From Niabella agricola (GTDB lineage Bacteria; Bacteroidota; Bacteroidia; Chitinophagales; Chitinophagaceae): a stretch of DNA of 64,000 bases. Numbering within the stretch: position 1 is the stretch's first letter; each line of letters opens with the position of its first letter. Under the pieces are notes generated by a model. It did no database searches. It saw nothing but the letters and a program-made list of their open reading frames with translations, and was not told the origin of the DNA. This document shows positions 61,688-61,970 of this stretch, in pieces. Position numbers and translations under genes: made by a program. The stretch spans positions 2,480,001-2,544,000 of the forward strand of contig NZ_JAJHIZ010000003.1 in assembly GCF_021538615.1 (NCBI RefSeq). Direction: 5' to 3'.

Positions 61688-61720
61688 TTTGGAATGAACA
61701 GGGAAGATTCTCTATTTTTG
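61688..61720 (+). promoter_or_regulatory. Promoter of the tRNA-like ncRNA
   Basis: TTTG at 61688-61691 and TATTTTTG at 61713-61720 match the -33 and -7 consensus with a 21-base spacer. This is the best complete promoter seen in the window. No coding frame follows; the ncRNA does. Confidence 0.78.
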
Positions 61721-61725
61721 TTCTA

Positions 61726-61930
61726 TCAAACGCTGAAACAGCGGGTTCTTTTACACTGTGGGGTGATGAAATTTTTGGCAGACATGCCCTCTTGTCTCGG
61801 GGGTGAGGAGTCCAGGATAAACACAGCATAGAGCCGGTTCCGATTTCGGTTGGGACCGACCGGGGTTGACCACCACGGAATTTGTGTTGCGGCTAACTGC
61901 CTCGTGGAGGTTCGAGCCCTCCCCCTACAG
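61726..61930 (+). ncRNA. tRNA-like non-coding RNA with a ~100-nt variable arm
   Basis: The RNA starts near 61726 with a short hairpin (CGCTG-AAA-CAGCG, 61731-61743). From 61757 a class II tRNA shape follows: acceptor TGTGGGG pairs with CCCTACA (61923-61929); D-stem ATG/CAT with GG in the loop; anticodon stem CCCTC/GGGGG (61787-61803) around loop TTGTCTC; T-arm GGAGG-TTCGAGC-CCTCC (61906-61922); discriminator G at 61930. The variable region, 61804-61905, is closed by GAGG/CCTC and contains an AACACA/TGTGTT helix and a GC-rich hairpin near 61834-61863. Normal class II variable arms are 10-20 nt. CCA is not encoded. I know no matching RNA family; tmRNA and RNase P do not fit. Confidence 0.65.
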
Positions 61931-61935
61931 CTTTT

Positions 61936-61969
61936 AAAAAGTCTTACAAGCAATATTGTAAGACTTTTT
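61936..61969 (+). terminator. Strong intrinsic terminator of the ncRNA
   Basis: AAAAAGTCTTACAA at 61936-61949 pairs fully with TTGTAAGACTTTTT at 61956-61969 around a 6-base loop, with the T-run continuing. It begins five bases after the tRNA-like 3' end. Confidence 0.92.
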
Positions 61970-61970
61970 T

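Follow-up and report, generated by a model that had tools for sequence, protein, structure and literature searches.

The window, meaning the whole analyzed stretch of 64,000 nucleotides of Niabella agricola DNA, contains a gene for a tRNA-like RNA with a giant variable arm and, divergent from it, a gene for an AsnC-like regulator. The positions of all features are collected in Table 1. The cloverleaf was confirmed at 61756–61931, with a Bacteroidota-type promoter ahead of it and a strong terminator behind it. The initial annotation had described the RNA as shaped like a class II tRNA and framed by its own promoter and terminator, and both statements hold. The promoter was recognized by eye and is absent from the output of a sigma-70 scan.

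Table 1. Features of the RNA locus, numbered from the first nucleotide of the window
Feature	Position	Strand	Description and basis
AsnC-like regulator of the Lrp/AsnC family, 155 aa	61136–61603	−	Divergent from the RNA; NCBIfam and PDB comparison
Candidate operator, palindrome-like TTGCAAATATTTAAA	61639–61653	+	Best match to the motif, one mismatch
Promoter, Bacteroidota-type	61688–61720	+	TTTG at 61688–61691, TATTTTTG at 61713–61720; read by eye
Whole tRNA-like RNA, position 1 to discriminator G73	61757–61930	+	Covariance model, 137.3 bits; alignment
Acceptor stem, 5′ strand UGUGGGG (U1, G2)	61757–61763	+	Partner 61923–61929; 5 of 7 pairs covary
D arm	61766–61785	+	3-bp stem, 61766–61768 with 61783–61785; 2 of 3 pairs covary; GG in loop, A at 20a
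Anticodon arm	61787–61803	+	Loop TTGTCTC at 61792–61798, giving G34 U35 C36 U37 C38
Giant variable arm	61805–61903	+	4-bp base stem (2 of 4 pairs covary) and 3-bp inner stem
Inner stem of the variable arm	61813–61815 with 61897–61899	+	3 of 3 pairs covary
Internal loop of the variable arm	61816–61821 and 61893–61896	+	GATAAA and CTAA; conserved
T arm	61906–61922	+	Loop TTCGAGC; sequence, alignment
Acceptor stem, 3′ strand CCCTACA, with discriminator G73 and encoded C74	61923–61931	+	Partner 61757–61763
Intrinsic terminator	61936–61970	+	14-bp stem and T run; the stem frames the RNA

Architecture and distribution of the RNA family

The single sequence is no proof of the cloverleaf, because the RNA part on its own does not fold better than its shuffles (z = −0.96) and prefers another fold, the energy minimum being −67.9 kcal/mol as opposed to −61.9 kcal/mol for the constrained cloverleaf. 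The proof comes from comparison. In an alignment of 31 diverse copies, 99.0% of the cells of the 28 pairs hold a standard pair, which falls to 51–60% when the partners are slid against each other. Fourteen of the 28 pairs change on both sides, and none of 500 shuffles scores as high on any of the measures. Two-sided changes occur in the T, acceptor, and D helices and in both the base and the inner helix of the variable arm, whereas the anticodon stem varies in more distant copies. RNAalifold draws the acceptor, anticodon, variable-arm, and T helices unaided from 32 copies and leaves out the D stem; in 12 of its 37 pairs, both partners change and pairing is preserved. A chance cloverleaf is ruled out by the covariation alignment together with RNAalifold, and the tRNA-like RNA is real.

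The copies have the body of a class II tRNA resembling tRNA-Leu, which carries, in the window, a GUC triplet, just as it had been read before. The variable arm, also correctly described as giant and structured, begins with a covarying 4-bp base and continues with a bulge, a covarying 3-bp helix, a conserved internal loop, and an upper part that differs between lineages—herein the upper helix is supported on 32 copies. Its size varies greatly, from 36 to 128 nt in the subset of copies measured. The suggestion that the arm hosts an unprocessed insertion has to be given up, since the arm contains covarying helices and a conserved internal loop. The 3′ end reads GC (G73 plus the encoded C) in 183 of 185 copies, and a C after the discriminator is likewise found in 44 of the 45 ordinary tRNA genes of the N. 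agricola genome. Some copies in the alignments carry hairpin insertions, L037 and L044 in the D loop and L044 and L259 in the variable arm.

Two of the checks named in the initial annotation, against known RNA families and against relatives, came out in its favor. The RNA belongs to a family without an Rfam 15 match: cmscan at E ≤ 5 returns no family at the RNA locus and a single weak match elsewhere. Conservation and covariation in relatives are strong, and BLASTN recovers counterparts of the RNA region from 57 of 99 related genomes. None of the 47 matches to the tRNA family RF00005 in the whole genome falls on the locus, and ARAGORN calls no tRNA there. In another place, G000:C3:581561–581854, three tRNA-family matches lie ∼110 bases apart, two of them weak (32.5 bits). 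Literature searches confined to open-access PMC listed no recognizable description of this RNA.

A covariance model, R1, was built from the 31-copy alignment; the next-best site in the N. agricola genome reaches 40 bits, as opposed to 137.3 bits for the locus itself. Genomes were counted as RNA-bearing at ∼90 bits or more with R1. In the phylum set, 40 of 395 genomes carry a copy above 90 bits, belonging to families f1, f18, f23, f28, f29, and f30 as well as f68 of another class; none of the remaining matches listed exceeds 67.4 bits, and ordinary tRNA-like matches listed reach up to 62.5 bits. Stricter filters were used in the searches of more than 40 genomes, and none of the 18 RNA-less genomes re-searched with laxer filters reached 90 bits. 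Genome G052 was included among the RNA-bearing ones on the strength of a copy truncated at a contig end. Genome G165 was counted as RNA-less; it contains an armless copy of 78 nt (L347, G165:C23:55337–55414) that keeps U1-A72, G73, and U35 C36 C38 and scores only 67.4 bits. Hence, further armless copies may be missed at this threshold. The same copy is the only one of 185 that ARAGORN calls as a tRNA. Its label would be tRNA-Asp (atc), and armless copies may thus stand in annotations as tRNA-Asp.

Named records with copies include Chitinophaga, Niabella, Algoriphagus, Cyclobacterium, Fulvivirga, Marivirga, and Saprospiraceae among others, and a Phaeodactylibacter record shows five copies in tandem. 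In total, 185 distinct copies of 78 to 212 nt were compared; two copies are cut by contig ends, and L130:303–415 was dropped as a weak match (24.1 bits). Because 100 of these copies were found by the loop pattern, conservation of the loop was judged on the 85 found without using it. A scan with this pattern gave a copy in 79 of 80 loci, the exception being a deltaproteobacterial record. Flanking signals recur as well: a T run of at least five follows within 70 nt downstream of 137 of 184 copies, and a loose −7-like pattern precedes 116 of 184 within 75 nt, a count made without a control.

Decoding and identity nucleotides

The RNA does not appear able to decode. The pyrimidine at position 37, which had been pointed out for the window, recurs in 184 of 185 copies, with a purine in the remaining one. 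U33 is present in 142 of 185 copies and replaced by C, G, or A in 43, and the loop always follows the pattern YNNUCNC. U33 and a purine at position 37 are found in all 43 ordinary tRNAs of the genome that were scored, of 45. An odd but still translational tRNA, or a decaying tRNA-Leu, would account for the Leu-like D arm and elbow and for a C74 as in ordinary tRNA genes. However, it fits neither the pyrimidine 37 and non-U33 loops nor the covariation across several families, and the discriminator is G73 in 85 of 85 copies where tRNA-Leu has A73, a leucine determinant according to the passages of PMC9976931; hardly any credence is left for this explanation. The initial annotation was right to list a new role for a tRNA-Leu-like RNA among its options.

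Among the 85 copies found without the loop, U35, C36, C38, G73, the pair G2-C71, and the pair U1-A72 are each present in every copy, and position 20a is always A and not U. G34 is present in 82 copies and replaced in three, two of which come from f29, also the family of the armless copy. In the cited passages of PMC9976931, G73, G34, U35, C36, and C38 are described as strong aspartate determinants that are conserved in evolution. U1-A72 is described there as the element that confers amidation on Asp-tRNA(Asn), and G1-C72 and U20a as those that prevent it in tRNA-Asp; G1-C72 is strictly conserved in bacterial tRNA-Asp. As a putative AspRS substrate, the RNA carries the published set G73, G34, U35, C36, and C38 along with the minor G2-C71; G1-C72 is missing, replaced by U1-A72 in 85 of 85 copies. 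As a putative GatCAB substrate, it combines U1-A72 with the absence of U20a, again in 85 of 85.

None of the 45 ordinary tRNA calls of the genome has this full identity set. U1-A72 occurs in four of them (Asn, Gln, one Met, and one Arg), and none of the four has U35 C36 C38. Because the aspartate set is joined to U1-A72, the RNA can be read as a hybrid that would be charged as tRNA-Asp is and amidated as tRNA-Asn is. This combination was not part of the initial annotation, and neither were the AsnC likeness of the regulator and the tie to gatB described below. Serylation was also considered, as SerRS uses G73 and a long arm according to the passages of PMC7609411; it is regarded as a less likely possibility, since both the loop and U1-A72 would be left without an explanation.

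The AsnC-like regulator and the tie to gatB

The regulator had been annotated as an Lrp regulator, and for this claim the family stands but the closer assignment does not. Of the NCBIfam models for 11 families, the AsnC model NF008384 scores best with 166.5 bits, as opposed to 54.4 bits for the Lrp model, although the AsnC equivalog cut-off of 227 bits is not reached. The nearest solved structure is E. coli AsnC (PDB chain 2cg4, E = 4.4e-33). AsnC likeness is not peculiar to RNA-linked regulators, since the relatives in RNA-less genomes match AsnC best too, with 121–150 bits as opposed to 154–177 bits (10 proteins), none reaching the cut-off. For E. coli, the passages of PMC8707732 describe that AsnC activates the divergent asnA and that asparagine reduces this activation.

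A relative of the regulator is present in 96 of 133 loci, in all 96 upstream of and divergent from the RNA at a distance of 123–270 bp; in five of the 37 loci without it, the sequence upstream of the RNA is shorter than 700 bases. For the 40 RNA-bearing genomes of the phylum set, the coordinates place it next to the RNA and divergent from it in 30 and elsewhere in 10. In the relatives set, it is found in 59 of 60 RNA-bearing genomes as opposed to seven of 39 RNA-less ones, G065 (E = 4.6e-38) being scored absent, as is G001, where the contig ends. All 45 RNA-linked rows of the regulator tree fall into one group of 76 rows (support 100/98), which also holds five rows from RNA-less genomes on long branches; rows labeled as unlinked include loci where the RNA had not been marked, and no use is made of the group counts of this tree. 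A palindrome-like motif, defined post hoc after inspection of the data, occurs with at most one mismatch in 38 of 96 nonredundant intergenic regions as opposed to 2.6 in shuffles, and its best match in the window is the candidate operator. At five loci (L247, L248, L249, L361, and L362), where the regulator is present without the RNA, inspection by eye shows a promoter-like element next to it and, behind this element, a terminator-like hairpin.

The adjacency to pheS that had been noted for the window is not a regular one. Of the 133 loci, many of which are short, 11 contain a pheS-type gene, and a dependence on pheS was rejected. The regular neighbors also bear on another use of the RNA. Transfer RNAs are known to act as aminoacyl donors for transferases, and Asp- or Asn-RNA might feed such an enzyme acting on lipid, cell wall, or peptide, which would suit the tandem copies and the strong conservation. 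Neighbor clustering, however, shows no such transferase among the regular neighbors, and a donor role is judged very improbable.

Co-occurrence with gatB was stated as a test before its result was seen. A gatB match is present in 89 of 89 distinct RNA-bearing genomes of the two surveys together, in four of them (G002, G003, G012, and G028) in pieces. In the family of the window, f1 (60 genomes of the relatives set), RNA and gatB are both present in 47 and both absent in 13, with no discordant genome (Fisher p = 1.9e-13, ignoring kinship). The 13 genomes represent 13 genera; one of them, G006, belongs to Niabella itself, and two, G043 and G045, still have the regulator. Hence, at least three independent losses are likely, as judged without a species tree. 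Among the remaining families of the order, gatB is present in 13 of 13 RNA-bearing and in 17 of 26 RNA-less genomes, and in the phylum set in 40 of 40 RNA-bearing genomes. In f23, RNA and gatB occur together in seven genomes, and the gatB matches do not include the RNA-less G100, G214, and G447. Within the class, gatB is present in the RNA-less genomes G135, G165 (with the armless copy), G246, and G294, and in other classes many genomes have gatB without the RNA. Hence, the RNA is seen only with gatB, whereas gatB occurs without the RNA; all of these counts ignore phylogeny. The gatB matches of G246 and G294, both from f25, score lower (∼1e-105), and the other listed members of f25 have none.

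In a survey of AsnB, 18 of 60 RNA-bearing and three of 39 RNA-less genomes had no match above the cut-off, counts that are confounded by related amidotransferases. It says little, because the matching proteins examined (10 of 10) score 272–319 bits, below the 499-bit cut-off of true AsnB.

The tie to gatB also weighs on two regulatory explanations. In the first, the RNA would be an AsnC-controlled antisense RNA that regulates amino-acid genes by pairing through its exposed pyrimidine loop. The divergent regulator, the terminator, and the invariant loop pattern would agree with this, and gcvA–gcvB is a precedent for a small RNA linked to its regulator. Yet G73, U1-A72, the intact tRNA elbow, and the tie to gatB are left unexplained, making pairing as its function distinctly unlikely. 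In the second, the RNA would bind AspRS and GatCAB, charged or not, and tune them or report the aspartate/asparagine status as a decoy or sensor, with no route to asparagine. The same identity nucleotides and the link to gatB would be expected here, the regulator adjoins the gene, and the large arm could hold other proteins. A decoy does not need the amidation determinant, however, which is kept in 85 of 85 copies, and we regard a decoy or sensor as possible but rather unlikely.

Proposed function and comparison with known systems

Judged from its sequence features, the RNA is probably a dedicated adaptor for RNA-dependent asparagine formation, served by AspRS and GatCAB, excluded from the ribosome, and under AsnC-like control. 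It would be transcribed from its own promoter under the AsnC-like, probably asparagine-sensing regulator and mature in the manner of a tRNA. AspRS would charge it with aspartate by means of the aspartate-type anticodon loop and G73; because this loop is of the tRNA-Asp type, an AspRS specific for tRNA-Asp would suffice. GatCAB would then recognize U1-A72 and amidate Asp-RNA to Asn-RNA. The RNA would be kept off the ribosome by its giant arm, by pyrimidine 37, and by the lack of U33 in many copies, so that the asparagine, instead of being inserted at Asp codons, would be released or handed on. Its release as a free amino acid is a guess. Transcription, CCA addition, charging, amidation, control by the regulator, and the fate of the asparagine are what we infer from the features described. 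Several points speak against the adaptor: the passages of PMC9976931 describe AspRS as normally meeting a small variable loop, and the arm here is huge; U1-A72 replaces G1-C72; G34 is absent in three of 85 copies; and gatB is also found without the RNA.

Taken one step further, this noncoding RNA would be a recyclable coenzyme whose sole task is the conversion of aspartate to asparagine off the ribosome and which holds, beside the asnC-like gene, the place that asnA has in E. coli. We lean slightly toward this stronger claim. To our knowledge, all descriptions of tRNA-dependent amino-acid synthesis concern tRNAs that serve in decoding as well. A nondecoding RNA built for this purpose would, if true, give living bacteria an RNA coenzyme in their primary metabolism, and GatCAB would gain a definite task in part of the Bacteroidota. 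The passages of PMC4206432 discuss the role of GatCAB in bacteria that also have AsnRS and GlnRS as unsettled and name 18 genera, including Bacteroidetes, with AsnRS, GlnRS, and GatCAB and neither asparagine synthetase. For these, GatCAB is supposed there to make asparagine on tRNA-Asn; in some of them, the RNA may be the substrate.

Compared with canonical tRNAs, the RNA shares G73, G34 U35 C36, C38, and G2-C71 with tRNA-Asp and differs from it by U1-A72 instead of G1-C72, pyrimidine 37, A20a, the class II body, and the giant arm. With the class II tRNA-Leu, it shares the D arm, the elbow, and the layout, whereas discriminator (G73 for A73), loop, and arm size are different. It resembles tmRNA in having a tRNA-like end on a longer RNA; tmRNA as its identity was rejected, since the genome has a separate tmRNA and the locus gives no RF00023 or other Rfam match. 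The pseudo-tRNA tRNA-Other of Bacillus cereus is likewise tRNA-like, thought to be nontranslational, and expressed under a regulator, but according to the passages of PMC3399842 it has a Trp anticodon, is part of a longer RNA, is linked to Fur, and is confined to the B. cereus group.

In function, the RNA would be related to tRNA-dependent asparagine formation on tRNA-Asn, as in Deinococcus, Thermus, and Bdellovibrio, with which the predicted route from Asp-RNA to Asn-RNA shares AspRS, GatCAB, U1-A72, and G73. There, as described in the passages of PMC4206432, the RNA decodes and AspRS is nondiscriminating, whereas here the loop is of the tRNA-Asp type and the RNA is apparently nondecoding. 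The arrangement of the genes, in turn, recalls asnC–asnA of E. coli, in that an AsnC-type gene is divergent from its presumed target in both; the target described in PMC8707732 is asparagine synthetase A, and here it is an RNA.
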